A stretch of 29,861 nucleotides of DNA from the IMG/VR virus record IMGVR_UViG_3300035698_024476, positions 1 through 29,861 of that record; one strand, 5' to 3'. Of this stretch, positions 9,484 to 24,814 are shown in pieces. The notes under the pieces were generated by a model. It did no database searches, was not told the DNA's origin, and was given only the letters and a program-made list of their open reading frames with translations. This DNA comes from a virus. A program made the translations under genes and the position numbers. Within the stretch, counting starts at the first letter, position 1. Every line of letters begins with the position of its first letter.

Positions 9484-9490
9484 AATGACA

Positions 9491-10837
9491 ATGCCAACCT
9501 TTGCTAACCTACCAGGAGCAACGGTAGAGATCACGGATCTTGGTTTGCGTATCAGTAGGCCCCCTGCGGGGCCAAAAGTTATGCTCCTTGGTATAACTAC
9601 ATCAACAGACATATCGGCAACGCCATATGTTCCATATACCGTATCAGATGGAAGTCTAACTGCGGCATACGTTAAGTTCAAAAATTCAGATGGAACAATA
9701 AGTGAACTTGATAAAGCATTGATGGAAACATCAGTAGGCGGTGGAAGAGATATAGAGCTTATGAACATTCTGCCTACAGCTAGTGGAGTTTTAACGGGTG
9801 ACGATGATAGATATGGTTATCTAGATGAAGCATATGCACATTTGCTTAATTATGATGTTGATATAGTGGTACCAGTTGGAGCGCACCTTGATTCTCAAAC
9901 TCTTAGCAATCCTACTCAGAGGAATTTTGGTTACCAGTTAGCCAACTTCTGTTACCAAGCTACATCAAATAACGATACCTGCCTTGGCGTAATTGGCGTC
10001 GATGGAGCAACAGCTAGTCCATCGGGGACACCAACCCTTGATGAATTAGAAAGCTGGAAAACAGCTTTAGCGGCATATACGAATTGTGCGTGTTATGATG
10101 GAACCACAGATTCGACGGGAGATGGTGTACCTGAAAATTATTGCTTTGTTGCAACGACCGAGGGTACCATGCCAGCTAGTTTTGCAGGAGGAAGCGTTAC
10201 TGATGAGAAAGGTAATAAAGTTGATATTGGTGCATATATCTCAGTAGTTGCTGCAGCAGTAAGGGCCATTAATGAAGCATCCACAGATTTGTATCCTACT
10301 CTTGGATATTATAATGCTGATGGTGCGGCTACTTATGCTGGTTTAATCTCGTCATTACCAGCTATGAGTGCTCCAACTAACAAGATAATGAGTGGTATAT
10401 CTATGCAACAGTATGTATCATTGACGCAGGCAAATAGTCTTGCTGGTAGCAGATTTGTACCAGTTATCAACAAGCCTAAGGGTAATGTTGCTGCGACAGC
10501 AATGACTGGAGCATATAATATCAGTCAGTATTACAGGTCAGATTTTGTAAGACTCACTACGGTTAGAATAGTACATGATGCTATTAATTTTGTAAGAGAT
10601 GTTGCGGATCAATTTATAGGTGAGCCAAATAGCGCACCACAAAGAAATGCTATGTCAACAGCTATTGAAAATGCACTTAAAGCTATGCAATCTCAAGGAG
10701 CGTTGAGGCGTTACGATTTTAATATATTTGCCACCGCAACAGACCAAGTCCTGGGTAGGGCCACGGTCGAATTGGAACTAGTACCTGCGTTTGAATTAAC
10801 GCAGATTACAGTTATTGTATCACTTGCAGCTGAATAA
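9491..10837 (+). CDS. Contractile tail sheath protein
   Basis: A 448-residue protein, started at 9491 because of ribosome binding site spacing, beginning MPTFANLPGATVEITDLGLR. Sheath subunits wrap the tail tube and contract to drive it through the host envelope. The N-terminal segment with PGATVEI and a Gly/Ser-rich loop, the central alpha/beta part (DEAYAHLLNYDVDIVVPVGA, then LGVIGV), and the C-terminal strand-rich part (GRATVELELVPAFELTQITV) fit the layout of the sheath family. The C-terminal strand exchange region is expected to link subunits. It is directly followed by tube-like genes. No frameshift or truncation is visible. The call rests on the fold pattern and gene order. Confidence 0.85.
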   Translation: MPTFANLPGATVEITDLGLRISRPPAGPKVMLLGITTSTDISATPYVPYTVSDGSLTAAYVKFKNSDGTISELDKALMETSVGGGRDIELMNILPTASGVLTGDDDRYGYLDEAYAHLLNYDVDIVVPVGAHLDSQTLSNPTQRNFGYQLANFCYQATSNNDTCLGVIGVDGATASPSGTPTLDELESWKTALAAYTNCACYDGTTDSTGDGVPENYCFVATTEGTMPASFAGGSVTDEKGNKVDIGAYISVVAAAVRAINEASTDLYPTLGYYNADGAATYAGLISSLPAMSAPTNKIMSGISMQQYVSLTQANSLAGSRFVPVINKPKGNVAATAMTGAYNISQYYRSDFVRLTTVRIVHDAINFVRDVADQFIGEPNSAPQRNAMSTAIENALKAMQSQGALRRYDFNIFATATDQVLGRATVELELVPAFELTQITVIVSLAAE

Positions 10838-10855: not shown

Positions 10856-11467
10856 ATGCCTGTTAGCGAATATACCAGAAGCTATAACTCTTTCTCAGGT
10901 GTAGACATTAAAGCTACATTTGGAGGACAAGTTATAGGGGAGCTCCAGGGCGTTAGTTATTCTGTGACGCGCGAAAAAGCTCCTATATATACGATGGGTT
11001 CTGCTGACCCTCGCTCCTTTTCTAGAGGTAAACGAGGGATAGCTGGAACTGTTATTTTTACTGTTTTTGATAGAAGTGCATTAATCTCTGTATTTTCAGA
11101 CAGAGGCGATCCAGGTGCGTTATTTTTTGCACATGATACAGATGTTGCGAGACATACCGCAGAGGAGAGTTCAAGAGGAACTCAGGTGCATGAGAGTGTT
11201 TTTACTGATAACGTTTGGGTGCCTGCATGGTATCCAGATCAACTTCCACCGTTTGATATAGTTCTTACCGCGGCTAATGAATATGGACAGGTAGCCGTGT
11301 TATCTATTAACAGTGTTGAAATACTCAACGAAGGTTCGGGTATATCTGTTGATGATATAGTTACGGAACAGCAAATGACGTTTGTGGCAAGAGAAATTAT
11401 GCCATGGAAACCTAAGGCTGATGTCGATACTGCTGGTTGGGGAGTTAATTTTAATATTAATACATAA
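10856..11467 (+). CDS. Tail tube protein, first of three paralogues
   Basis: A 203-residue protein with AAAGGAGGA upstream, immediately after the sheath. Tube subunits stack as hexamers to make the inner channel for DNA. Beta-rich motifs are visible: YNSFSGVDIKATFGGQVI, GVSYSVTREKAPIYTMGS, RGKRGIAGTVIFTVF and the C-terminal INSVEILNEGSGISVDDIV. The segments FSG, the TREK/Pro turn, GIAGT, and EILNEG-type endings recur in the next two genes, so the three are paralogues. Of the three this is shortest and closest to the sheath, which makes it the best candidate for the main tube subunit. Confidence 0.8.
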   Translation: MPVSEYTRSYNSFSGVDIKATFGGQVIGELQGVSYSVTREKAPIYTMGSADPRSFSRGKRGIAGTVIFTVFDRSALISVFSDRGDPGALFFAHDTDVARHTAEESSRGTQVHESVFTDNVWVPAWYPDQLPPFDIVLTAANEYGQVAVLSINSVEILNEGSGISVDDIVTEQQMTFVAREIMPWKPKADVDTAGWGVNFNINT

Positions 11468-11479
11468 TAAATGTTATGC

Positions 11480-11505
11480 GTTGGGAGGGGTAAAACCCTC
11501 CCAAC
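11480..11505 (+). terminator. Perfect 10-bp hairpin after first tube gene
   Basis: GTTGGGAGGG at 11480-11489 pairs without mismatch with CCCTCCCAAC at 11496-11505, around a GTAAAA loop. It occupies most of the space between two tube-like genes. It lacks a following T-run, so full termination is doubtful. Partial termination or protection of the 3' end of the tube mRNA would set expression of this gene above the next. That role is inferred. Confidence 0.5.
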
Positions 11506-11522
11506 AATCATAAGGAGAAAAG

Positions 11523-12266
11523 ATGGGCTTCAACTATTCACCATATTGGTGGCCGTTTACTGACCCTAAAAGAGACTCAAGTTTCACCGAAAGAGAGGCT
11601 AGTGCTAGACGTAGGTCTGCAGAAGGAGCACAGAATTACTGGTCAAACCTTTATGGAACTTATAATTCTTTTTCTGGGGCAGATATAGTTGCATACATAC
11701 ACATCCCACCGCAAGAGGTTGGGTTTGACGGTACTGGTGCGCCAAGACAAACGGAACCTATAGTTGGAGTATTGGGAACACTTCAGACAATATCATATAG
11801 CACTCACAGAGAAGTTGTTCCAGTTAGAGCGCTAGGAAAAGTAAGAGCACACGCTTACACACGAGGACCAAGAACGATAGCAGGAACTATGGTTTGGGCC
11901 ACAATGGATGAATATGTTTTAGCAGAAGCACTCAGATATACCTACACTGGAGATTGGGATCCATCTACTACCCTTGTAGATCAGATACCACAATTCAATA
12001 TAATAATAACATTTAACAATGAGTATGGTGATGTATCAACAATGGGTATATATGGAATACGGTTTGTTAATGAGGGAGCTACAATGAGTGTGGATGACAT
12101 TTTAATGGAACAAACAAATACCTATATAGCAACTGATATAGATATGATGCACAAAGGTCCACCGTTTAGAAACATGAAAACCTTTGAATCTCTTAAGTCT
12201 GGAAGTCAAGTTCTTATGACAGAGGCAAGAAAGAGAATGGCAGGCCACAGGAGCTCTTTAAAATAA
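11523..12266 (+). CDS. Tail tube-like protein, second paralogue
   Basis: A 247-residue protein with AAGGAG before the ATG. After a polar N-terminal extension of about 40 residues (rich in Arg, Ser and Pro), it repeats the tube pattern: YNSFSGADIVAYIHIPPQEV, ISYSTHREVVPVRALGK, RGPRTIAGTMVWATM and GIRFVNEGATMSVDDILMEQ. These line up with the FSG, REK-Pro, GIAGT and NEG-x-(S/T)-(I/M)-SVDDI stretches of the upstream gene. The long N-terminus and a basic C-terminal tail are extra. Such a relative could form a special ring at the tube end or be a tube-baseplate adaptor. It is a paralogue by eye; its position in the tail is inferred. Confidence 0.75.
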   Translation: MGFNYSPYWWPFTDPKRDSSFTEREASARRRSAEGAQNYWSNLYGTYNSFSGADIVAYIHIPPQEVGFDGTGAPRQTEPIVGVLGTLQTISYSTHREVVPVRALGKVRAHAYTRGPRTIAGTMVWATMDEYVLAEALRYTYTGDWDPSTTLVDQIPQFNIIITFNNEYGDVSTMGIYGIRFVNEGATMSVDDILMEQTNTYIATDIDMMHKGPPFRNMKTFESLKSGSQVLMTEARKRMAGHRSSLK

Positions 12267-12276
12267 GGGGTAAAAT

Positions 12277-13053
12277 ATGGGTATATTTGATTCTACCGGT
12301 CCAGGTACAAAATTTAGGTTTGCTTCGAAGAACTATCAACCAACTGATACTAGTGATTTTAATTATTTCTCAGGATCACAAATAACTATATGGTTTGGGA
12401 ATATATGGGTTGATGACATAACTGCCATAGGTTGGCAATACAATCAAGAGAAAAGACCAATATATGGATATGCTTCTCAGCATTTTGATGCTGTGGCTAA
12501 GGGGCAAGTTTTGATTCAGGGTCAGTTAAGAATAAATTTTAGAAATCAAGGATACCTGTCTTATATACTTAAAAATTTACCAAAACTTCGTGAAGGTCTC
12601 AAGACCAATCAAAGCGAAGAAGAAGATGAAAAAGTGTGGGAAGAGTTAAGGCCAGTTATTTCTACACACTTGAATAACGGAACCTTCGGCCCAAAAACAT
12701 TTCAGGAGATACTTGAGATGCCAAAGAGAGATGATTTTTTGGAAGTATCAGAGCTATATGCAAAAGCTATTTGGGGCGAATTGCCAGAAGAAAAGAAGAA
12801 ACAATTGAATACTCCAGACATAATACAACAAGAAATATTTCCAGAAGGATTTAACATATTAATAACTTACGGAGATCCGCAGCAAGCAGATCCACAATCA
12901 ATTAATGATGTTATGGCTTCAACTACAAAATCACTAACAGGAGTTCATCTTCTTGGTTCTTCCCAGGTAATAGAAATAAATGGAGAGCCTACTCAAGAAA
13001 GTTATACATTTATGGCTCAAGATATGGATAAATATATGGGAGCATCACAATAA
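12277..13053 (+). CDS. Tail tube-like protein, third paralogue
   Basis: A 258-residue protein with AAGGGGT before its ATG, coded just after the second paralogue. It shares the core: FNYFSGSQITIWFGNIWVDD, GWQYNQEKRPIYGYASQHF, GQVLIQGQLRINF and a C-terminal half with GVHLLGSSQVIEINGEPT before a SYTFMAQDMD strand that matches the T-x-VARE-type strand of the first. It differs by a central insertion of about 90 residues (roughly 105-195) of acidic, mostly helical sequence rich in Glu and Lys. The FSG and EKRPIY matches are convincing. A tube-end or baseplate-tube junction role is a reasonable guess. The insertion may be a specialised docking arm. Confidence 0.7.
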   Translation: MGIFDSTGPGTKFRFASKNYQPTDTSDFNYFSGSQITIWFGNIWVDDITAIGWQYNQEKRPIYGYASQHFDAVAKGQVLIQGQLRINFRNQGYLSYILKNLPKLREGLKTNQSEEEDEKVWEELRPVISTHLNNGTFGPKTFQEILEMPKRDDFLEVSELYAKAIWGELPEEKKKQLNTPDIIQQEIFPEGFNILITYGDPQQADPQSINDVMASTTKSLTGVHLLGSSQVIEINGEPTQESYTFMAQDMDKYMGASQ

Positions 13054-13068
13054 GGAGGATATTAAGTC

Positions 13069-13392
13069 ATGGCAGAAGAAAACAAAGAAATAACACAAGA
13101 AATGATTACAGAATGGAAACAGAAATTTGGAGATGTATATAGTGCAGTTTTAGCGGATAACAAAAAATATGTATATAGATCCATGAAGAGAGTGGAATAT
13201 AAGAGCGTTATTGCAAACCAAGACGCTTCAAGATCGTACATGGAAGAACAGATAGTCTTAAAGTGTTTGGTATATCCAGCCCTAAACGCGACAGACCTAT
13301 CTGCAGAGAAAGCTGGCACAGTTTCTACACTTACGGATCTTATTATGGCGGCAAGTAATTTCGGCGTAAATGAAGAACCAGTTAAGTTATAA
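13069..13392 (+). CDS. Tail assembly chaperone candidate 1
   Basis: A 107-residue protein with AAGGAGGA upstream. It lies where tail assembly chaperones are normally coded, between tube genes and the tape measure slot. It is mostly helical and charged. The motifs EWKQKFGDVYSAVL, EEQIVLKCLVYP and AGTVSTLTDLI (82-92) recur in the next gene in nearly the same register (AGTVS at 81-85 there), so the two are tandem paralogues. Its TAA overlaps the next ATG as TAATG. Chaperones of this class often use a -1 frameshift, but I saw no slippery site. A chaperone role is by position; the paralogy is seen directly. Confidence 0.65.
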   Translation: MAEENKEITQEMITEWKQKFGDVYSAVLADNKKYVYRSMKRVEYKSVIANQDASRSYMEEQIVLKCLVYPALNATDLSAEKAGTVSTLTDLIMAASNFGVNEEPVKL

Positions 13393-14030
13393 TGGATAAG
13401 AAACTTCCTGCTAGCATAAATAAAAAGATAGAAATTCTTAAAGAAAAATATTCTACTATATATGGACTTGAGATAGGAAAAGACTATTTTATACTTAAAC
13501 CCTTGAGCCGAAAAGAGTTTGGTATACTAGTTGAATTGCAAGACTATATGGTAGGAGCTGCGGAAGAGTTTATCTTTAAAATATGTGTCTTATATCCAGA
13601 GATAGAAGCAAAAGACATAGACCAGATGCTAGCAGGAACTGTTTCTGAAATAGCTAGAATAGTGGTTGAGATCTCTGGATTTTCATCCGCAGAAGCACTA
13701 GCTGGACTTATGCAGACAAACAGAGAATTAATGGAACTTGTAGACATGCAAGTTACAGCACTTTTGTGCAAAGCGTTTCCTCAATTAACTCCTGAGATTA
13801 TAGACGAATTCGATATATACAAAATCACACATTATCTAGCCCTCGCTGAACAGATACTGGGGGTCACATTGGATATTCCAATTAATCAAAAATCACAAAA
13901 ATCAAAATTAAGTAGTGGTCCGATAGACTTTAACGTTGATAACAATGAATTGTTTAAGTCTGAAGTAGGCAATTTTATGCCAAAAGGAGACCACAACGTA
14001 GATAAACTTAAAGGAGGGAATGTGGGGTAA
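13392..14030 (+). CDS. Tail assembly chaperone candidate 2 (paralogue)
   Basis: A 212-residue protein coupled to the gene before by a TAATG overlap. The first 100 residues repeat that gene's pattern, including KEKYSTIYGLEIGKDYF, EEFIFKICVLYP and AGTVSEIARIVVEISGF. The C-terminal half adds helical sequence (TNRELMELVDMQVTALLCKA) and a disordered, Lys/Ser-rich end that includes KSQKSKLSSG. The gene's 3' end lies inside the terminator hairpin that follows. The short form plus long form resembles the G/GT pair of other tailed phages, except that here two separate reading frames are used. Chaperoning of the large protein downstream is inferred from position. Confidence 0.65.
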   Translation: MDKKLPASINKKIEILKEKYSTIYGLEIGKDYFILKPLSRKEFGILVELQDYMVGAAEEFIFKICVLYPEIEAKDIDQMLAGTVSEIARIVVEISGFSSAEALAGLMQTNRELMELVDMQVTALLCKAFPQLTPEIIDEFDIYKITHYLALAEQILGVTLDIPINQKSQKSKLSSGPIDFNVDNNELFKSEVGNFMPKGDHNVDKLKGGNVG

Positions 14031-14063: not shown

Positions 14064-17000
14064 ATGCCAGAAGACAAAAGTAAACTATTAGCACAATATG
14101 GTCCATACAATGAGGCTGACCTTGGCGATCCAGACGAAGGGGGTACATTTTGGGCTAAAGCGTTAAAAATAGCATCAGCAACCGCAGTAGCTGCGGGTGT
14201 AGGTTTTGTTGTATACAGGGGTGCTAGGGGTGCTGGTTTTTTGCCTTTTGGTAAAACAGTTTTCGAGAAGAGGGGTGCTTTAGACTTTCCTCTTCAAAAA
14301 TTCTTTCGTCCATTATCAAAAGATATTGTATTTAAGAAACCTATAAAGATACCAGAAATACGTATACCAGGTTTTGAGAAACCGCTAGTAAAAGGTAGAA
14401 CTATAGGCGGAATAAAATCTATAAGACATTTTAATATAAAAACAGCTGCGTGGAATGCTACTGAAGGACAACTTGGGAAGTATGGAGAGTTAGTAAAAAA
14501 GAGAACTTTTATTGAGAGTTTTCTGGAAAATCAAAATTTATTGCGTGAAAGTGGTTTTGGTTTAAGGGGCGTTAAAGAAAGCGTAGCACACTTATTTAGC
14601 AGGACAATAGAGTCTATACCTGAGTTTTTGAGCTATGCTGGTTTTGAGACTGCAGCTAAAAAAGCTAAAAAGATACCAGAGTGGATACTTGGTGGCTCAA
14701 CTTCTGCTCATCCTGGATTTTTAAAGGCCCCAACAAGAATACAAGAAGCACTAAAGAGTTCTGGATTTAACCCTGGTTCAAGAACTCCTTGGGGAGTTAT
14801 AGGTAGAGTTGCAACAAGAGTTATGCTTCCAGCGTACATTGCAACCCTTGGATATAACTATTTGGACTATAGGTTAAGAAGGTCTGAAGCTTTTGACAAA
14901 ACACCACTAAGAGAGGGAATTACTGAAGCTGGTGCTAACATGTGGGTTAAATCTCGCATGTTTATGCAAAAATCATTAGATAAGCTTGGTGCTCTTAACG
15001 CAAATAAATATATGCAGAATCTGTTTCCTGGATATCTAAGAGCAGCGGGACTTGTTCTAGGTTTATCTGCGGGGATAAAAGGAAAACAAGGATATCTATC
15101 GACACTTCTTAAGAGCTTTGCTGGTGGAGTAGGTGGTTATGCTCTAGAAAGAGGTCTTAGTTATTCTCCAGAACAACTCGAAAAGATATACTCAGGCGAA
15201 GAAGATGTAGCTGTAAAGAAGGGTAGATGGTGGGAATTTGGGCGAACACCATTTGAGGGTGGTAAGGTTTCGTATTACAGGCAACATTGGTATCCGTTGC
15301 TTAAGTCAAGATATAGAGAGCAAGGAGCGCTATATCCGTCTGAGGATTGGAAGTGGCAACACCATTGGCTAGTTGGGCCGATTACTGGAAACAAGCCCGA
15401 TCCATATGCTTGGGAAAAAAGATACTACAAAGAAAGACCATATCCCGTAACGTCTGGAGCGTTTGAAGATGTTCCACTTATAGGGCCAGCTTTAGATGCT
15501 ACTATAGGAAAAATAATAAAGCCAAGAAAATTGATGCACGAAGAGGAGTGGCTTGGATCTGGTGAAATGATTCAACAGCCAGAAGAAACAGAACGCATCA
15601 GAAGAATGCCCATTGATACAACCGAAAGACTTCAACTTGGCGGCATACCGCGTGGTGGTATGGGTGAAGTAATTACGCCAGAAGGCGTAAAGTATGCTAT
15701 CGGTGAGCAGCAGTATAGGTTTACAGAATGGTTTGGTTTACCAGGTTTTTACATGCAAGAAGCACTAAGGTCAGCAACTGGACAAGAAAGTTTATTTGAG
15801 CAAGCTAGATTGCAGGGGTCTGGGCGTGCTACTGGGTATGAGCGGTCGTATTGGGATAGAGATCTTGGTGGACTTTTAGGAACCACAGAAATTTTCAGGA
15901 GGTTTTTTCCACACAGAAGACGTCAGATAGAAGAGTATAATCCGATTGAGAATCTTGCAGGAAAAAGACATCCTTGGCTCCCTGGTTCTGAGTACTTCGT
16001 TGATTTTAAACACGGAGACCCATACATAAAAGTACCAATGGGCGAAGCAAGGCTTCCAGGGACAGGTTACGAAGCTTTAAACGAATTGCACTCAAATATT
16101 CCAGGTGTTTATGATGCCGTAGACAGATTTCTTATATTGGCAGATATTGCTCCGTATTCTGAGCAGTTCAAAAATTATAGAACAATAGTGAATATGTGGT
16201 CTAGGGCTGGAGTTATAGATAAAACGTGGGAAGGAAAGATAGAAACGGCTAGGGAACAAAGAAGTGAAAGGATGAAAAAATACGAGTTTCAGCCTCGTAG
16301 ATTCTCAAGGGTACGCAAGCAAGTAGACGAAGCTCTTACTGGAGATAATCTTAGCAAGATAGAGGAAGGAGCTGGTAGGGCCTGGGAAGGTGTAACCCAT
16401 ACGCTCTCAAACGTTCCAGTACCAGGCGTAAGTTACCTGGCTGGGAAAATGATGCCAGCAAGGACACCAATAGAACATTATGAAAGATTTCAGGTATTTG
16501 GAAGAGAAGCTTCATTTTGGGGACACCCAATACGAGATTTTGCTAAAGTATATTATCAAGAAGCCAGAGGGAAATTGCAACCCACATGGATTCCACCAGA
16601 TGTTAGCAAAAAACGTGAAATAGAAGAGTATTTTGATAAGGTTGAATATATAAAATATAAACAACTAGCAAAAAGATCAAGAGAAGTAGAAGATTATGGA
16701 CTTGCTAAAGAATTTGACAAAAGATCTAAAGAAACATTACACGGTTTAGATCCTTATGGTAGTTTTGCGAACATATTTAGAGCGATGCCAAGAGCTGAAA
16801 GAGATTATTTTACTGAATTTTCCGATGCACAGGGCGAAGAAAGAGAGAGAATAAGAGAGCTGACACCTAAGTATATGAGTAGGATATACGAAGCACAGTG
16901 GCAGATGAGAGATCGCAAGTCTGGCGTAGATGATGAAACTGTTGCAGTAGAAAGACAAACAAATGAAGATCTTTCTGAATTTTTCACTGAACATCATTTA

Positions 17001-17366
17001 CCTGGACCAAACTGGTTAGGATGGCATCCAGATGTAGATCTTGATAAAGTTAAACTTAAAGTTGTAAAAAACGAAGCTCTTGATATTCATGATTTCAATT
17101 TATGGAGGACGCAGGAAAAAGAAGCAACAAGAGAACCAGTACCATTTATAAGAGATTTTAGCACACCAAATCCACAATATGATACTCCAGTTCTAAGGAG
17201 AGATCTTATAGAAGAACTTACTAGCAGAGATTTTAGCTTTCCAGAAATAGAAATAACAACACAACCATCTGACAGGAGAATAGTTAGTATCGATTTTGAT
17301 GTATCAAGAGATCAATCAGATAAATTCTTACAAAGAGTAAAGGGCAGGATGCCCATAACAGTATAG
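14064..17366 (+). CDS. Very large tail protein in tape-measure slot (part 1)
   Basis: An 1,100-residue protein with only a weak AGGTG before the ATG. A hydrophobic stretch near residues 35-50 (ATAVAAGVGFVVYRG) and another about residues 325-360 (AAGLVLGLSAGI, AGGVGGYALERGL) suggest membrane-active segments. Long stretches are basic and aromatic-rich, with Trp, Tyr and Arg clusters (HHWLVGPITGNKPD, RHPWLPGSEYFVDF, GEARLPGTGYEAL). The C-terminus is acidic and helical. No long coiled coil dominates, unlike many tape measures. I do not recognise a named family. Position favours tape measure or ejected tail protein. It could be both, since the gene follows the chaperone-like pair and precedes baseplate genes. 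Confidence 0.6.
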   Translation: MPEDKSKLLAQYGPYNEADLGDPDEGGTFWAKALKIASATAVAAGVGFVVYRGARGAGFLPFGKTVFEKRGALDFPLQKFFRPLSKDIVFKKPIKIPEIRIPGFEKPLVKGRTIGGIKSIRHFNIKTAAWNATEGQLGKYGELVKKRTFIESFLENQNLLRESGFGLRGVKESVAHLFSRTIESIPEFLSYAGFETAAKKAKKIPEWILGGSTSAHPGFLKAPTRIQEALKSSGFNPGSRTPWGVIGRVATRVMLPAYIATLGYNYLDYRLRRSEAFDKTPLREGITEAGANMWVKSRMFMQKSLDKLGALNANKYMQNLFPGYLRAAGLVLGLSAGIKGKQGYLSTLLKSFAGGVGGYALERGLSYSPEQLEKIYSGEEDVAVKKGRWWEFGRTPFEGGKVSYYRQHWYPLLKSRYREQGALYPSEDWKWQHHWLVGPITGNKPDPYAWEKRYYKERPYPVTSGAFEDVPLIGPALDATIGKIIKPRKLMHEEEWLGSGEMIQQPEETERIRRMPIDTTERLQLGGIPRGGMGEVITPEGVKYAIGEQQYRFTEWFGLPGFYMQEALRSATGQESLFEQARLQGSGRATGYERSYWDRDLGGLLGTTEIFRRFFPHRRRQIEEYNPIENLAGKRHPWLPGSEYFVDFKHGDPYIKVPMGEARLPGTGYEALNELHSNIPGVYDAVDRFLILADIAPYSEQFKNYRTIVNMWSRAGVIDKTWEGKIETAREQRSERMKKYEFQPRRFSRVRKQVDEALTGDNLSKIEEGAGRAWEGVTHTLSNVPVPGVSYLAGKMMPARTPIEHYERFQVFGREASFWGHPIRDFAKVYYQEARGKLQPTWIPPDVSKKREIEEYFDKVEYIKYKQLAKRSREVEDYGLAKEFDKRSKETLHGLDPYGSFANIFRAMPRAERDYFTEFSDAQGEERERIRELTPKYMSRIYEAQWQMRDRKSGVDDETVAVERQTNEDLSEFFTEHHLPGPNWLGWHPDVDLDKVKLKVVKNEALDIHDFNLWRTQEKEATREPVPFIRDFSTPNPQYDTPVLRRDLIEELTSRDFSFPEIEITTQPSDRRIVSIDFDVSRDQSDKFLQRVKGRMPITV

Positions 17367-17374
17367 GTGAATTC

Positions 17375-19792
17375 ATGGCCGAATTTGAAAAATATACACA
17401 ATCATATAAAGGGGATACTTTTTATCGAACAAAATATCCGTCAACCCCTAGGCCAGCAGCGCTAAGGAGAGCCAGAGGTCGCGCGGCAATAAAACTTAGA
17501 GGTGGCCCTTCTGATGTACTTGATGTATTAAAATCTGGAGAAATTGCTGATGCTTTAGAAAAAAGAGCAGCAAGGATAGATGCGTCGTATACTGTACGCC
17601 AAAAAATACCATTAAAAGCTGGTGGATGGCAACTAATAGATAGAAATGCGTCTGTGTATGGTGCCATAGATCCGCATGTTCCAGTCTGGAACGTTGGTCC
17701 TGGAGATGTAAGTACGGCAGAGATAGCTGATGCATATAACAAATTGGCAAGAAGTAAAGAATTGCCAACTGGCATGAAACTTGAAGATGCGGCAAGAACG
17801 CCTGAGATGAGTGGTGAGCTTTCAAGGAGACGACTCATAAAATCAGAGTTTATGCCAGCCGGAAGAGTACGCCCCCAGACTCTACTAGGCGAAGATTGGG
17901 TTAGCCCAGGAAGAGCTGGAACAGAAATAGAAAAAGCTGGAGCTCAGATACCAAGGGGGCTAGAAAAGTACCCAGAAAGCATTAGAGAGGGTATCTTGTC
18001 TGGAAAACAAACAAGTTTTGAAACAAACGTTTTAGCGGACCTGGAAAAAAGATGGTACAAAAAAATAAGAGGACTACCACGCACTAAAAGAAAAGAGATT
18101 TCTGCTAGACTTAAGGGGAGTAGGGTTGTTGGAACAACCCTGGACAGAGGGGGACTTACCTATGCTGAGAAGGAAATTGCAGGTGAAGTTGCCGCCGGTA
18201 GGACATCGTATATAAATGCTCTAGATTTAGATAGGGTTAGCAATTATGAATCTAAGGCAAGTATACTTTCCAAAGAACTTGCAAGACAAGACTTGAAAAC
18301 TGGAGCATATCGTGCCGAAAGTACGTTAAGAAATATGGGCTTAACAGAAGCTCAATTAAAGGCCTTGAAACCTGTTGGAGGATATAGAAAAGTATGGATA
18401 CCAGGTGAGGGATACGTAGAGTCTGGAGAGGTTTTTGCGCGTGAAATTACCGGGACAAAAGGTCAAGAGAATCTTTTTAGAAGACTTCTTCCAGATCAAA
18501 CAGGTGACCCGCAGGTACCCTTTGATGAGCTGTCACTTGGAGACGATACTTTAGGAAAAACTCGCAGAAAAAGCAGAAAATTAGTAATAGATAGACACAA
18601 AGATTACGCTTCAGCACAATACGCCTACCCGAGGACTATTACTAGAACTAAAAGAAGATTGGCTTATAAGGAAGCCAGGTTAGCAAGAAAAGCCAGAGGC
18701 AGAGAAGCCATGCTCTTCAGGGAGACTGCAGCAGTTCCAGTTGGTGAATCATACGGTGCGACACAAGCCCCCGATGCATCAGCCATAAGAAGAATGAGAA
18801 CCATGGCACGAGCAGGAAGAGCAAAAACTCAGGCTTCAGCTACGCTTACAAGCATAAATCAGTCGATAAAAGACAGTGCATTACTTCCAGATATAGTAAG
18901 ACCAGAGCTCGTTTCTGAGGGATTGATACCAGCAGGAAAGACTAGGTTGACATTAAGACCATATGATCTTACAGATGATCTTCTTGCTAAATATACAGGA
19001 ACAACTAAGGGTATAGATGTTCTGCTTGGAGACAAAAAGATAGGTGTTGTTCCTTATGGTGGCGAAAGCGGGATGAAGGGTGGTACTATAAATCAGATAT
19101 TAAGATCAGAAAGAAATGCTGCATACCTAGAAAAATCAGGAAGACTAGCAGGTGGTCAACCATGGGGGAAGATGAGAATCTTGCAAGAGTTAGAGCCAGG
19201 CAAAGTATCTCAGATGAAGAATGTTCAAATAAGGGGAACAACGTTTTTTGGTCTTGATGATTTACTCCCAGGGCAAACGAAACAATCTGCACAGAAATCA
19301 GCTTCAAGGGGAGCTAGACTAGAAGGTTTCGAAGCCGTTAAATCGTGGATGAGAAAAGTGCCAGCAAAATGGAAAATAGGTGCAGCTGTAGCAGGTGTAA
19401 CACTTGGTGCTTTAATGTTTAGAAAAAAAGAACCACAGCAACTAGCACTAGAACCAGGAGGTGCTTCAGACACTTCTTTGTATGGTGGTCTAAAAGGAAG
19501 AACAATGTATCCAGAAGGAATGGAAGAAGATATGTCATCTCCAACGCAGGAGCCAGCGCTTCCTATGTCTTATAGCGCCAGGATAGAAGACCCAAATTCA
19601 ATACAAACAAACATAAGAATAAAAAGCGGAACAAGAAGAGATGTTGATTTTGAGGCTGTTGGTAGAGGGTTAGGGTTAATGGCTTCCAATAGGTCTGGGG
19701 CAGAATTGGGAGATGTTAACGTCAGAGTTACGGATGACTCTAGAAGAATGAATGATCAATATATAGACAGAAAAATAGCGAGGATAATATAA
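17375..19792 (+). CDS. Very large basic tail protein in tape-measure slot (part 2)
   Basis: An 805-residue protein starting 9 bases after the previous stop (AGGTG upstream), so it is a separate gene rather than a frameshift product. It is strongly basic across most of its length (many Arg and Lys, for example RRARGRAAIKLRGG and RKARGREAM). Near the C-terminus it has a single likely membrane helix (WKIGAAVAGVTLGALMFRKK, about 662-681) and then an acidic, disordered tail. Its stop overlaps the next ATG as TAATG. The helix and charge suit a protein delivered with DNA or lining the tube. I do not recognise a family, so tape measure, pilot and DNA-binding internal protein all remain possible. Confidence 0.6.
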   Translation: MAEFEKYTQSYKGDTFYRTKYPSTPRPAALRRARGRAAIKLRGGPSDVLDVLKSGEIADALEKRAARIDASYTVRQKIPLKAGGWQLIDRNASVYGAIDPHVPVWNVGPGDVSTAEIADAYNKLARSKELPTGMKLEDAARTPEMSGELSRRRLIKSEFMPAGRVRPQTLLGEDWVSPGRAGTEIEKAGAQIPRGLEKYPESIREGILSGKQTSFETNVLADLEKRWYKKIRGLPRTKRKEISARLKGSRVVGTTLDRGGLTYAEKEIAGEVAAGRTSYINALDLDRVSNYESKASILSKELARQDLKTGAYRAESTLRNMGLTEAQLKALKPVGGYRKVWIPGEGYVESGEVFAREITGTKGQENLFRRLLPDQTGDPQVPFDELSLGDDTLGKTRRKSRKLVIDRHKDYASAQYAYPRTITRTKRRLAYKEARLARKARGREAMLFRETAAVPVGESYGATQAPDASAIRRMRTMARAGRAKTQASATLTSINQSIKDSALLPDIVRPELVSEGLIPAGKTRLTLRPYDLTDDLLAKYTGTTKGIDVLLGDKKIGVVPYGGESGMKGGTINQILRSERNAAYLEKSGRLAGGQPWGKMRILQELEPGKVSQMKNVQIRGTTFFGLDDLLPGQTKQSAQKSASRGARLEGFEAVKSWMRKVPAKWKIGAAVAGVTLGALMFRKKEPQQLALEPGGASDTSLYGGLKGRTMYPEGMEEDMSSPTQEPALPMSYSARIEDPNSIQTNIRIKSGTRRDVDFEAVGRGLGLMASNRSGAELGDVNVRVTDDSRRMNDQYIDRKIARII

Positions 19793-22700
19793 TGGCCAAC
19801 AGTTTGACCCAATATGAAACAACTAATGGAACAACAGCCAAAGGATGGATTGAAGGTGGTAAACTTGCTGGTGAGTTTACTAAAAGGTATTCTAAGTGGA
19901 ACGAAGATTCAGACGCATTCTACGAAAGCCTTACTGTGCCATACAGCAAAATATATGAAGAATGGGCAAACAAAAATCAAAGCACAAAAGTATTGCCTGA
20001 TGTAAATTCTGAGATAGAAAGAATAGAAAAGCAAGCCGCAGGAAAAGATGAAAAAAAACAAGGCTACTTTAAAATAGGTACAGTCGAGCTTACTATACCG
20101 CCAATACAAATAAGTGTAAATGAGACAAAACAGAACCGCCCATACAAAACGCTTAGGACGTCTTCCGACATTGTTTTTCAATCTGGTAAATCTACCAAAA
20201 TTATAGAATTAGATATTTATTTTCATGATATAGATGAAATAAACAATAAACTTAGACCTTTGTTAGCACAGCTTAAGGCGTCTCCTTTTATACCGCTATA
20301 TAGTGATTATTTAAGGAGCATATTTCTTCCTGGTGATATTAAAAAAACGTCAAGCGAAGACAAGGACGAAGAAAAAGCTAAAAAAATAAAAGATATAGAT
20401 GCAAAAATAATGTCAAGGAGAAACGATTTAAGAGAGATTCTGCGCAAAAATAAACAGTTAATGGATTCAAGCCCAGACCTCATAGACAATCTTAATGAGT
20501 ATTGGGATGGTACATTAACAGCAAGAAATTCAAGTGGTTTAAATCAAAACATTAGTGTAGCAGAAAATCTTATAACCGTATTGACAGAAGCAGGAATAGC
20601 AGAGCCATATTCTGAGAAAGATAACATAATGGCTGTTTCTTATAGCGTTGAGATTGACGTGAAAGAGTATAAAAATGATAAAAATAATATTTTCCAGACT
20701 ATAAGCATACCTACAACAGATAGCAATATTGCTGGAGTTTTGTCTCAAGTAAATGTGGGTACTGTTGCTGGTTTTTCTGAATCATTGGTTTGTCATATTA
20801 CTTTTTTTATATTTAATTATTACCCGTTCAGTGATAGATTTGATTTTTTAGATAAAGACAATAAGCCAACACTTGATGTAGATAAATGTTTATATTTCAT
20901 ACAGTGGTATTCGTCTAGATTTCTAAGCCCAGACACCAACAGTGATAGCGATCATAAGTACTTTAAACCATTAAGCGGTAGCATGAATGGGAATATAACA
21001 TTCGAGTACATAAAAGAGATTGTTACGATAAATGAAAAAGATGAAAAAACTGTAGAAGAAAGTCCGATGGATCCAGTTAGCTTGGATGATAATACAGCAT
21101 GTTCGGCTATAACTGTTTCTCAAAGAAACAGCATATGTCTTTTGCCGGTGCTTCAGTGGTCTGCGCCTACATGTCAATACTTGGGATCTCACAATGCTAC
21201 CATAGGCATAACATTAGATACAATAGATAATAATTTTACAGAAAAGATTAAACACATGATAGATGAATGTGAAGAATCTGCTAGAATGGGGGATAAGGTA
21301 ACAAGGTCGAATTATATCCTAGTTGAAAATGAATTATTAGAACTTTTAGGTGTAAGAAATTGTGTTGTTGATGGTATCCAAACAAGCACAGTACAAGGTT
21401 CTCCTGGTATGACTAGAATACAGATTACTTTGACAGAGTTTAGCCCAAAACAGCTTAAAGGTGAAGCTATAGTTGTGTATAAAACGGCCGTTAAAGAGTT
21501 GCAGCTGGAATATTTTAAAGCAGATCTACAATTATATTTAGATGAAATTAATGGTGCAAGAAGTAAAGAGATACCAAGAAATAAACTAAGAGAAATATTG
21601 CAAGGAGACGAAATGTACAGAAATGCTGCAGGTGTACGTGATGAAGTTTTTCTTGAAAAAAAGTATTCAAATGCTATTATGCAAGCAGCGGCATCTATGG
21701 TTGGTCTTCCGCTTTTAAATACATTCCAAAAACTGTTAAGTAGGGATTCACTTAATTCCGTATATTTTGATGGAGACGAAAAAAGAATATCAGCTCTTAA
21801 AAATGTTATCGATTTATGTGGATCGCACGATAAAAGTGGTAATAAAAAAGTAGAAGCAATGTCTGTTTCTGGTTCAAAAGACAGAGAAGGAGTGCTTTAT
21901 AAATCTACAACAATAAGAGTAAAAGATTCAAACACAGCTCCTTCTAGGGAGTATAATAATGTGGACAAGAAAAACGTAGCAGATTATCTGAAGTTTTGTT
22001 TGTCAAAAGGATCAGGTATTAGTGATGTAGGTGAAATAGACGAAAGTGTTATCTATCTTTTGTATGAATCAGATCCTTTAAGCAAATATAGGCCAGAAGT
22101 AATAAACAACATAGAAGCGCATATAGGTGGAAATGGTGTTGGTTTAGATCCGCACGTGGAAAAAAGGTTGTTAGAAAATAAACTCTTTGTAGACACTAAA
22201 AGTAGAACTAAAAGATACCCAGATATGTGCCTTCCACTTTATTCTGATACCAAAAAAGTTGGCGTTGGATCGCCAAAAACAACATATAGCGTTCTAGGTA
22301 AGCCAAATGAAAACAATAGGCCAGAAGATACTCCTCGCGTAGATAGCGACACAGTAGAGCCAGATTTTTATTTTAATAATCTTATGTTAGACGCAGAAGA
22401 AGCACGAGAAAGAGCAGCAATTGTATTTGATAAAGAGTATGTAATGATGAGAGATAATATTTCAAAAAATATTGCTAGCCAAAAATTAGAAAATGATAAG
22501 AACGCATCTATACCACAAGATGATTTACAAAATGCAGAGGGACTAAAAGAGACAGATAAGGATATAAAAGAAAGAAGAGAAGCTGCAAAACGTTTTAAAA
22601 ATAAAGTAACAGCATTATATTTGTTACCAACATCTTCAGAAGAAAATGAATTATATAGAGAAGAAGTACTAAGAGAGGGTACTTGGGATCTTCCAGAAGA

Positions 22701-22848
22701 AGGTGTATCAACTAAAAACAAAATAGCTGATGATAAGAAATATTATAAAGAAAAAGATAAAACTATGGACGCGTCAACAGCAGATATATATGGATTAAAT
22801 GTTGATTCTTCTAAAAAAATAATAATAATTCCTGGAGAGAAAGAATAA
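19792..22848 (+). CDS. Large baseplate/tail structural protein
   Basis: A 1,018-residue protein beginning in the TAATG overlap. The N-terminal 280 residues include VELTIPPIQISVNETKQNRP, followed by SDIVFQSGKSTKIIELDIYF and LRPLLAQLKASPFIPL, a beta pattern with 'LRPL...PFIPL' that recurs in large-phage baseplate proteins. A second segment (about 280-370, VSYSVEIDVKEYKN and ESLVCHITFFIFNYYPFSDR) and a third (about 450-560, ending SPGMTRIQITLTEFSP) look similar in layout, suggesting repeated domains. A large helical and charged C-terminal half follows. It precedes the hub gene, so a baseplate hub or tail-tip ring is likely. No family name is certain. Confidence 0.6.
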   Translation: MANSLTQYETTNGTTAKGWIEGGKLAGEFTKRYSKWNEDSDAFYESLTVPYSKIYEEWANKNQSTKVLPDVNSEIERIEKQAAGKDEKKQGYFKIGTVELTIPPIQISVNETKQNRPYKTLRTSSDIVFQSGKSTKIIELDIYFHDIDEINNKLRPLLAQLKASPFIPLYSDYLRSIFLPGDIKKTSSEDKDEEKAKKIKDIDAKIMSRRNDLREILRKNKQLMDSSPDLIDNLNEYWDGTLTARNSSGLNQNISVAENLITVLTEAGIAEPYSEKDNIMAVSYSVEIDVKEYKNDKNNIFQTISIPTTDSNIAGVLSQVNVGTVAGFSESLVCHITFFIFNYYPFSDRFDFLDKDNKPTLDVDKCLYFIQWYSSRFLSPDTNSDSDHKYFKPLSGSMNGNITFEYIKEIVTINEKDEKTVEESPMDPVSLDDNTACSAITVSQRNSICLLPVLQWSAPTCQYLGSHNATIGITLDTIDNNFTEKIKHMIDECEESARMGDKVTRSNYILVENELLELLGVRNCVVDGIQTSTVQGSPGMTRIQITLTEFSPKQLKGEAIVVYKTAVKELQLEYFKADLQLYLDEINGARSKEIPRNKLREILQGDEMYRNAAGVRDEVFLEKKYSNAIMQAAASMVGLPLLNTFQKLLSRDSLNSVYFDGDEKRISALKNVIDLCGSHDKSGNKKVEAMSVSGSKDREGVLYKSTTIRVKDSNTAPSREYNNVDKKNVADYLKFCLSKGSGISDVGEIDESVIYLLYESDPLSKYRPEVINNIEAHIGGNGVGLDPHVEKRLLENKLFVDTKSRTKRYPDMCLPLYSDTKKVGVGSPKTTYSVLGKPNENNRPEDTPRVDSDTVEPDFYFNNLMLDAEEARERAAIVFDKEYVMMRDNISKNIASQKLENDKNASIPQDDLQNAEGLKETDKDIKERREAAKRFKNKVTALYLLPTSSEENELYREEVLREGTWDLPEEGVSTKNKIADDKKYYKEKDKTMDASTADIYGLNVDSSKKIIIIPGEKE

Positions 22849-22861
22849 AAATGGAGCAGAT

Positions 22862-24814
22862 ATGACTGGAGTACCCCCACCATATAAATACGAGAACGAA
22901 TCTGGTTCTATGAGCTTTGATGCTTTTAGTGATGAGCACAAAGAAGAATTGAAAAAAAATTTTATAGAATCTTTTCCAAATGATATAGTTAGAATGTGTA
23001 GAGCGTTCCCAACATTTAAGCTTAAATTCATAGAAGAAGACGCTAACCATATGGGTTTTTATGATGATTTTTATGGATACGATTCAGTTAGAAGCATAAG
23101 CATACATAAATCAAGAAAAAACGCAGCTGACACAGCCATTGTTGAACTTACAAATTTTAAGGGTGTGCTAGATAACAAAGATTTTAAAAATGCAAAACAT
23201 GCTGATACAGCAAAAGAACATCTTAATTTCAAGAGGGCAAACACAGTAGACGAGCAAGAAGAGATAGACAAAATGATGATTCGTCCTGGATTGAGAATAC
23301 AAATAAAATTAGGATACTCATCGCATGATGGTGATTTAGATAATGTTTTTACTGGCAAAGTAACTGAGGTCGAATATGGTGACATGATTACATTTGTTGC
23401 TCAGGGGTATGGCGTTGAGTTGTTGCATAAGGCGGGTCTTAGTTTTTGGGAAAGGGTTACACGTGCTACATTTGGTACGCCACGTCGTTTAGTAGCAAGT
23501 TTGATGACTAGTAGACATACAAGACACCTTGGCAGGAGAGGTATCAGCAACCCTTCAAAGGAAGTCATTGCTGGAGAACCTGACAAAAAAAGAACCTGGT
23601 TAGATAGCCCTATAGATGATAATGTATTTATAGAGTCTGGCGACGAAACAAGTTATTGGTTTGATGTTAGGTGGTGGGTGGAGCAGTTTAAAGTATATCA
23701 TACGACTGCATGGGAAGCGATACAAGAAATAACTACCAGATTTCCTGGACACATAGCCTCTGTAGTTCCGTTTGATGATAGGGCAACCCTCTTTTTTGGA
23801 TTACCAGATCAACCATACTTTTATACTGCAAGGAGGGATTATAGTATAAGGAGGGATTTTTGTAGCAAAGTAAAAGATGAAAAAACTGCAGTAGACGATG
23901 GTGGTGGGTCGTCACCGAAGAACTTAAATGCTAAGATATTTAGGTCATATCATTACAAAGATAGTGAACATCATATAGTTGCTAATAATATAAAAATAAA
24001 TTTTGATAATTTTTTTAATGAAATTGTAATCACTTATAAGGTGACCAAGGTAAGTCTTCGACCATGGAAAAAAAGAGTTTCCCTTCTAGATTTAATCGAT
24101 GACGGAAAAGCTGAATTAGCAGCAGATGATACAATAGAAGAGAAGTATCTAAAAACAAAAATATTAAACGTACAAAATTGTGAGAACAAAGCACAAGCAC
24201 TGCAGTATGCTTTAGGTCATCTTCTTTTGTCCACAAAGGAACTATACGACGGAGAGTTGGTTATACTGGGTGACGCAAAGATAAAACCACATGACGTTGT
24301 GATAATATCTGACGATTATAATGCGATGTATGGACCAATAGAAGTGAGAGAAGTTACGCATAATTTTGACAAAGACCAGGGTTTTACCACAACTATAGTT
24401 CCAGATCTTGTTGTGCATATTAATAATCCGTTCAAGATAGCTCAGTTAATGTCTTTTGGTTTCATGATGAGTGAGCTTTTTGTTAAATATTCGCCACAAA
24501 GACTTATGTTTAATCCGATGGGGACTCCTAAGTTAAACCCTCTTAACATGGATTTTGATTTAGAGAAAAAGATTTATTCATTATTTGGTAAGTCTGGTTG
24601 GCAAGAAGCCAGAAGAGAACCAATAGGACTGTCTCCTTTGGTGTATAATGGACAACCATATATAGCTGGTTTTGAGGGCATGAAACATGAAGATTGGTTA
24701 GTGAGAAAATGGGAGGGATATGTTAAAAAGTGGAAAGAGATAAAAGCTGGAACTAGGGCTGCGTACGATATTGCTGATACTGTTTTTAGTGGATCCATAA
24801 AAGGGGGAAAATAA
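22862..24814 (+). CDS. Baseplate hub protein (gpD/gp27-like)
   Basis: A 650-residue protein. After an acidic start, residues 130-190 hold RPGLRIQIKLGYSSHDGDLD, VFTGKVTEVEYGD and a following TFVAQGYGVELLHKAG. This 'pGxxIxIxxGY ... vFtGxVxxV ... vxAxGyxxeL' pattern is the tube-like barrel seen in P2 gpD, T4 gp27 and VgrG hub proteins, which join tube and spike. Residues 360-480 are beta-rich (ELYDGELVILGDAKIKPHDV) and fit the second hub domain. The C-terminus is helical, with Trp and Lys residues. It is followed by a small protein and the spike candidate, as expected of a hub. The barrel assignment is fairly good. The ends are unassigned. Confidence 0.7.
   Translation: MTGVPPPYKYENESGSMSFDAFSDEHKEELKKNFIESFPNDIVRMCRAFPTFKLKFIEEDANHMGFYDDFYGYDSVRSISIHKSRKNAADTAIVELTNFKGVLDNKDFKNAKHADTAKEHLNFKRANTVDEQEEIDKMMIRPGLRIQIKLGYSSHDGDLDNVFTGKVTEVEYGDMITFVAQGYGVELLHKAGLSFWERVTRATFGTPRRLVASLMTSRHTRHLGRRGISNPSKEVIAGEPDKKRTWLDSPIDDNVFIESGDETSYWFDVRWWVEQFKVYHTTAWEAIQEITTRFPGHIASVVPFDDRATLFFGLPDQPYFYTARRDYSIRRDFCSKVKDEKTAVDDGGGSSPKNLNAKIFRSYHYKDSEHHIVANNIKINFDNFFNEIVITYKVTKVSLRPWKKRVSLLDLIDDGKAELAADDTIEEKYLKTKILNVQNCENKAQALQYALGHLLLSTKELYDGELVILGDAKIKPHDVVIISDDYNAMYGPIEVREVTHNFDKDQGFTTTIVPDLVVHINNPFKIAQLMSFGFMMSELFVKYSPQRLMFNPMGTPKLNPLNMDFDLEKKIYSLFGKSGWQEARREPIGLSPLVYNGQPYIAGFEGMKHEDWLVRKWEGYVKKWKEIKAGTRAAYDIADTVFSGSIKGGK

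Follow-up and report, generated by a model that had tools for sequence, protein, structure and literature searches.

A tail-operon gene pair of contractile-tailed phages whose second member usually carries a predicted RNA polymerase, and a virus in which it appears without one

The tail genes described here have counterparts in Bacillus phage 0305phi8-36. In that phage, orf143/144 form a two-gene tail chaperonin, orf147 is the hub, and orf146 was assigned as the tape measure, mainly by correlation to tail length (Hardies et al. 2007, PMC2147016). The match of orf146 to BtI1/BwK1 is confined to its last ~60 residues (PMC2147016). In Thermus phage P23-45, a virion RNA polymerase and the tape measure are fused in a single protein, gp96 (Chaban et al. 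2024, PMC10770324); this is the only tie between a tape measure and a polymerase that we found in the literature. In a survey of 224 jumbo phage genomes, RNA polymerases were reported only in group 1, in 0305phi8-36 (a YonO-like enzyme) and in c-st (PMC7824862). Here we analyse the virus record IMGVR_UViG_3300035698_024476, a 29,861-base genome fragment of a contractile-tailed phage (the window), in which two adjacent genes, termed slot 1 and slot 2, follow a two-gene tail chaperone and precede the hub genes. This is the tape-measure slot, to which a first-pass annotation had assigned them.

Among 50,697 phage records, the sheath, the hub and the 1,100-residue slot-1 protein of the window had matches only in Acinetobacter phage ME3, Bacillus phage KLEB27-3 and Moorella phage MTATph1. 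The window and these three phages have a common gene order: sheath, tube-like proteins, small genes, slot 1, slot 2 and hub. The notes of the ME3 record link its gene block to 0305phi8-36. The closest known systems are the gp145/gp146/gp147 block of that phage, BtI1/BwK1, ME3, KLEB27-3 and MTATph1. As in 0305phi8-36, the block comprises a sheath, tube proteins, a two-gene chaperonin, a virion protein, a gp146-type protein and a hub. Slot 2 of the window is of the gp146 type in that its gene lies between a gp145-type protein and the hub and ends in a C-terminal module; as in gp146 (~60 residues), recognisable conservation is limited to the C-terminal end. The window differs from ME3 and KLEB27-3 in that its slot 2 has 805 residues and no polymerase, as against 1,603 and 2,434 residues, and in that its hub is encoded by two genes.

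The two open reading frames, at 14064-17366 (1,100 amino acids) and 17375-19792 (805 amino acids), both on the + strand, are exactly as first annotated. Each starts with ATG, and their codon-position GC agrees with that of the neighbouring genes. Since more than 60 related records have this pair at the corresponding position, both are real genes. Slot 1 and slot 2 are distinct genes that form a conserved pair in the 0305phi8-36/ME3/KLEB27-3 lineage. Neither protein has a significant match in Pfam or PHROGs (the sole PHROGs match of slot 2 is insignificant, E 0.058), so that both were rightly called unrecognised. Neither protein retrieved relatives from viral contigs when used as a single query sequence, while alignment-based searches succeeded: the scans yielded 53 viral and 5 bacterial-genome slot-1 loci, and then 18 more, several of them closer. 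The remote-homology and structure checks that had been proposed thus found relatives, established the homology of the slot-2 module and led to a predicted polymerase fold in the relatives, not in the window protein. Three points are, in our judgement, nearly certain: that the gene pair is homologous to that of the relatives, that the C-terminal module is homologous, and that slot 2 of the relatives has the polymerase fold.

The first-pass annotation had also considered a split tape measure, i.e., one gene broken into two frames. The frames are indeed adjacent, with a gap of 8 bases, but the slots are separate in all relatives seen and their sizes change independently. Slot 1 is the conserved one of the two; slot 2 varies almost freely and amounts to a polymerase or to almost nothing where slot 1 persists. 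Moreover, the C-terminal domains of the two slots are not detectably related. This reading is largely refuted, and we regard it as extremely unlikely.

In the relatives, slot 2 usually carries a hitherto unrecognised two-barrel RNA polymerase, whose fold and activity are predicted. In most relatives the gene encodes 1,388-3,270 residues. Of 58 non-duplicate relatives with a slot-2 gene that spans the relevant region, 53 have a DxDxD motif in it, located at 60-96% of the length read. Among the sequences of the larger of two groups, the motif is mostly D-x-D-G-D after RYPT...Q, which is the double-psi-barrel signature of RNA polymerase beta'. The P and the three D residues are invariant in both groups (25 and 15 sequences), and the groups are homologous (hhalign E 7.6e-10). 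Variants of the motif include DKDAD in L026 and DLDLD in L028 (L numbers label the related records). When the core profile was compared with PDB sequences, with no fold assumed, 18 of the 20 matches were beta'/Rpb1-type chains of RNA polymerases, and the top ones were the beta' parts of AR9 and phiKZ (best E 0.001).

Structure prediction pointed the same way. The AlphaFold model of the L043 core had a predicted local distance difference test (pLDDT) of 71.6 and a predicted template modelling (pTM) score of 0.68. The first 50 rows of its Foldseek search were all RNA polymerases (best E 3.9e-4, probability 1.00), and VIA-align matched it to E. coli beta' with a Z of 9.2 over 457 residues at 6.4 Å, to QDE-1 with a Z of 8.9 and to AR9 beta' with a Z of 8.4. 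Template modelling (TM) scores over the whole chain are low, with just ~220-460 residues aligning, and the fold is a predicted one. The independent model of an uncharacterized ME3 protein in BFVD gave a match at E 3.9e-6; no match named 0305phi8-36 was returned in that search. We found no description of this slot-2 polymerase in the literature. It would represent an unannotated family of RNA polymerases in a tail operon, present in more than 50 related viral, plasmid and bacterial-genome records.

The detection limits of these searches affect how negatives are read. PF00623 was found in none of the L004, L026 and L028 records; as the motif is present in L026 and L028, Pfam lacks the sensitivity needed here. 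The core profile found nothing in the L004, L086, L091 and L085 records, but it also missed the motif-bearing L100, which a more sensitive run of the core search detected; the absence of a polymerase elsewhere in those four records therefore stays undemonstrated. In L059, the 1,716-residue slot-2 protein (L059:13570-18720) has no DxDxD and only a weak C-terminal match. Another domain was seen as well: slot 2 of MTATph1 has a DnaQ-like exonuclease (phrog_192, E 5e-11), and similar motifs were noted by eye in KLEB27-3. In MTATph1, an annotated transposase and a gene resembling an IstB-type ATPase interrupt slot 2 (L010:21513-28869); the exonuclease part is still found upstream, and a separate gene, CDS31, encodes the C-terminal module (E 1e-12). 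With the profile used, no polymerase core was found in the MTATph1 genome.

The relatives resemble P23-45 gp96 in that a two-barrel RNA polymerase with DxDxD is part of a protein from the tape-measure slot. However, the polymerase of gp96 is N-terminal in a 5,002-residue protein, whereas the relatives are contractile-tailed phages in which a separate protein, with a C-terminal module of its own, bears the polymerase in its C-terminal half. Unlike gp96, the window's own copy lacks the polymerase, and in this it is like those P23-45 relatives that exist without one. The virion RNA polymerase of the crAss-like phage phi14:2 (gp66 in PMC10770324, equated here with the 2,180-residue structural protein of KC821624) is also a giant structural protein with a two-barrel polymerase, encoded beside other giant structural proteins, but it differs from the slot-2 family in gene neighbourhood. 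No direct profile match was obtained between the relatives' core and either P23-45 gp96 or phi14:2. The phiKZ and AR9 enzymes, virion and non-virion, whose beta' parts gave the best sequence matches, consist of several smaller subunits, while slot 2 of the relatives is one long chain in a tail operon.

Slot 2 of the window is divided as follows:

17375..19792, + strand: slot-2 protein, 805 residues, positional counterpart of 0305phi8-36 gp146 in polymerase-free form (position; C-terminal homology)
17375..19291, + strand: variable basic part of slot 2, residues 1-639, with no detectable relation to the polymerase core
19292..19783, + strand: conserved C-terminal module of slot 2, residues 640-803 (~165 residues; profile match)
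19364..19420, + strand: membrane-like helix inside the module, residues 664-682 (Kyte-Doolittle maximum at residue 664)

A profile of the module, built from 51 other slot-2 C-termini with the window left out, matched the window protein with an E of 1.2e-12 and 41 bits, while the best of 2,000 shuffles reached 6.7 bits. The module comprises a membrane-like helix, a Pro-rich linker and a beta-alpha-beta-alpha domain. The C-terminal membrane-like helix noted in the first-pass annotation is present at residues ~664-682 and belongs to this module, but it is moderately hydrophobic, with a Kyte-Doolittle mean of 1.24 that falls below the strict membrane cut-off of 1.6. In many relatives, a hydrophobic peak lies 110-141 residues ahead of the slot-2 C-terminus. 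The protein is very basic, as had been remarked (net charge +41). In the comparison with L004, the listed neighbours present in L004 all align at 36-80% identity, mostly over their whole length, while the slot-2 alignment is limited to the last 62 residues, making it the sole barely aligning gene of the block.

The window slot-2 protein very probably lacks the polymerase. It has no DxDxD, and its residues 1-639 did not score above shuffled controls against the polymerase core, either by profile hidden Markov model (HMM) or by hhalign, while the held-out relatives L100 and L101 scored 50-117 bits. One may instead suppose that the 805-residue protein keeps the polymerase fold, diverged past sequence recognition and perhaps acting with another subunit. 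The shared slot and the shared C-terminal module would fit this, and the surroundings of DxDxD already vary in nearer relatives, L026 and L028. Yet held-out relatives are well detected by methods that found no core similarity in the window, the motif is missing, and 805 residues minus the module leave 640, under the ~850-residue core used. We consider a hidden polymerase very unlikely. From its charge, one might guess that the basic 640-residue part binds nucleic acid or helps DNA entry.

The tree of these phages suggests how the difference arose. The window, L002, L085, L004 and L006 form one clade with a Shimodaira-Hasegawa-like approximate likelihood ratio test (SH-aLRT) value of 99; slot 2 can be read in three of them (805, 745 and 882 residues), and DxDxD is absent from all three. 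Polymerase-bearing groups lie on several sides of the clade. L086 falls within a supported set of polymerase-bearing phages, and its slot 2 has 193 residues, scarcely more than the module (E 8e-16). L091, from another metagenome, is nearly identical to L086 (2 differences in 22.8 kb) and has the same 193-residue slot 2. Two separate losses of the polymerase, one in the window clade and one in L086, appear to be the simplest account.

Taken as a whole, the explanation that we find probable is that slot 2 is a carrier with changeable cargo, and that slot 1 is the likelier ruler or an obligatory tail-lumen protein. Docking, in the lumen of the tail or on the hub, would be the task of the slot-2 C-terminal module. 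The changeable N-terminal cargo would enter the cell with the DNA. In most relatives this cargo would be the two-barrel RNA polymerase, in some together with a DnaQ-like exonuclease, and the polymerase would presumably transcribe the first phage genes. The window clade would have lost the polymerase and retained a basic cargo of ~640 residues. Slot 1, directly after the tail chaperones, would serve as the tape measure or, failing that, be an obligatory protein of the tail lumen. We infer virion packaging, ejection, early transcription, docking, the ruler role of slot 1 and loss rather than gain. It is fairly likely that slot 2 is a virion carrier whose cargo enters the cell; the tail-operon position, the precedent of P23-45 and the 'structural protein' annotation of the KLEB27-3 slot proteins support this. 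The first-pass annotation had also proposed a tape measure plus a DNA-delivery protein. This is close to our preferred reading, although the slot-2 RNA polymerase of the relatives was invisible from the window. For the lineage as a whole, we give an even chance to the view that the assumed tape measure is a tail-loaded carrier with a constant docking module and exchangeable cargo, slot 1 being the real ruler.

This view calls into question a published tape-measure assignment in a widespread jumbo phage lineage. An alternative follows the published assignment of 0305phi8-36 gp146: slot 2 would be the tape measure, with a polymerase fused to it in relatives as in P23-45. It accords with the assignment of gp146 by tail length, with the fusion in gp96, and with the fast divergence of slot 2, which is a habit of tape measures. 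The 193-residue form argues against that role: as a straight helix it would be ~29 nm long, and slot 2 is therefore not the ruler in L086 and L091 unless the tail is very short. This points to slot 1 as the ruler, or to no ordinary ruler. Furthermore, slot 2 has no coiled coil and no long runs free of proline and glycine, exonuclease-like and polymerase regions occupy much of the 2,434 residues of KLEB27-3, and the gene after the chaperones is slot 1. We hold slot 2 as tape measure to be unlikely.

Slot 1 and the genes around the pair are as follows:

9485..10837, + strand: tail sheath (phrog_16991, E 1e-68), which fixes the virion type (myophage) and the lineage
13069..13392, + strand: small tail chaperone, 107 residues, first of a two-gene G/GT-like pair, in the order of 0305phi8-36 orf143/144
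13392..14030, + strand: long tail chaperone, 212 residues, second of the pair (paralogy; position as in 0305phi8-36)
14064..17366, + strand: slot-1 protein, 1,100 residues, candidate ruler or tail-lumen protein, homologue of ME3_35, KLEB27-3 gp031/gp033 and MTATph1 CDS26
14151..14231, + strand: N-terminal hydrophobic helix of slot 1, residues 30-56 (Kyte-Doolittle maximum at residue 33; low-confidence AlphaFold helix)
14811..17153, + strand: conserved core of slot 1, residues 250-1030 (AlphaFold pLDDT mostly 70-96)
17184..17360, + strand: C-terminal alpha-beta-beta-alpha domain of slot 1, residues 1041-1099 (model secondary structure)
19792..22848, + strand: first half of the hub protein, 1,018 residues (phrog_20474, E 3.2e-35); a single gene in ME3, KLEB27-3 and MTATph1
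22862..24814, + strand: second half of the hub protein, 650 residues (phrog_20474, E 2.8e-55; KLEB27-3 'putative baseplate protein', E 8e-46)

The place right after the tail chaperones is the classic one for a tape measure. Across the window and L004, the short chaperone matches a domain of the longer one that comes next (E 2.9e-9 and 1.7e-9). Because the 107- and 212-residue genes of the window are paralogous, the two-gene chaperone pair is present and slot 1 directly follows it, upstream of the hub, as expected of a tape measure. Slot 1 matched phage records with E down to 1e-39 (tblastn). It has 17 invariant positions in 42 aligned sequences, and its length across relatives ranges from 1,100 to 2,764 residues. 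It is aromatic-rich with a hydrophobic patch, as first described (F+W+Y = 12.1%; stretch at residues 33-51). The AlphaFold model has a mean pLDDT of 68.9 and a pTM of 0.68, with no resolved structure for residues 1-240 and a core of short helices and loops. Compared with the PDB, it gave no fold match at E <= 0.001, and the best VIA-align Z of 4.6 was uninformative. Coiled coil is not dominant in either slot, as had been observed: there are no heptad-like windows in slot 1 or slot 2, and glycine plus proline make up ~15% of both. A C-terminal domain common to the two slots was also considered and found unsupported (probability 0.7%).

It may be that neither slot is the ruler, both being tail-lumen or ejected proteins and tail length depending on a gene beyond the window or on something else. 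The short helices, loops and many invariant residues of the slot-1 core are unlike known rulers, and no coiled-coil ruler was seen elsewhere in the window. Against this, the chaperone pair directly upstream puts slot 1 in the classic place, and slot-1 length varies more than twofold. We regard this as rather unlikely. That slot 1 is the ruler we put at even odds, a moderate confidence because slot 1 lacks long helices and is conserved. A clear tape measure elsewhere in the genome was named in the first-pass annotation as the finding that would overturn its proposal; none with a clear coiled coil was found among the other open reading frames of the window, which is a genome fragment.

Several points weigh against a carrier in slot 2 and a ruler in slot 1. 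Slot 1 has neither the long helices nor the coiled coil of a usual tape measure, and it is unusually well conserved for one. Gp146 of 0305phi8-36 was assigned as tape measure by tail-length correlation (PMC2147016), and ME3_36 is annotated 'hypothetical'. L086 may have another ruler gene or a short tail. A gain of the polymerase instead of its loss is possible, given long branches and a root position that is not fixed, and docking and ejection are themselves inferred. Natural polymerase-free members such as the virus of the window make both the early-transcription role and the identity of the ruler testable by comparison. If the explanation is true, the window clade shows that phages of this lineage can drop the polymerase or exchange it for other cargo; and if the C-terminal module is a loading signal, it offers a handle on protein loading for ejection by contractile tails.

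Further observations concern slot 1 and its neighbours. A weak thermonuclease match (E 0.056) was found at positions 1165-1266 of the slot-1 profile, in larger relatives such as L009 gp033 and L010 CDS26. The region is absent from the shorter protein of the window; a nuclease-like domain has been reported for the BtI1 hub too. The slot-1 gene of KLEB27-3 (L009:15827-22980) is broken into gp031 and gp033 by the 211-residue frame gp032, which by eye is HNH-endonuclease-like and is possibly an intron or homing element. The window hub consists of two frames (19792-24814), as against a single gene of ~2,200-2,330 residues in ME3, KLEB27-3 and MTATph1. Three tube-like paralogues stand in tandem at 10856-13053. 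The PHROGs labels of the tube-like family ('major head protein', phrog_9206) and of the hub family ('endolysin', phrog_20474) are probable mislabels. Finally, 'plasmids' of ~190-240 kb from Bacillus, Paenibacillus, Cytobacillus and Cetobacterium (L103, matches H18-H27) carry the slot-1 gene, and the lineage therefore probably includes phage-plasmids. Those of Bacillus, Paenibacillus and Cytobacillus are circular and measure ~200-240 kb, and a 'plasmid' from B. licheniformis has a slot pair of 1,980 and 2,288 residues, with DSDGD.

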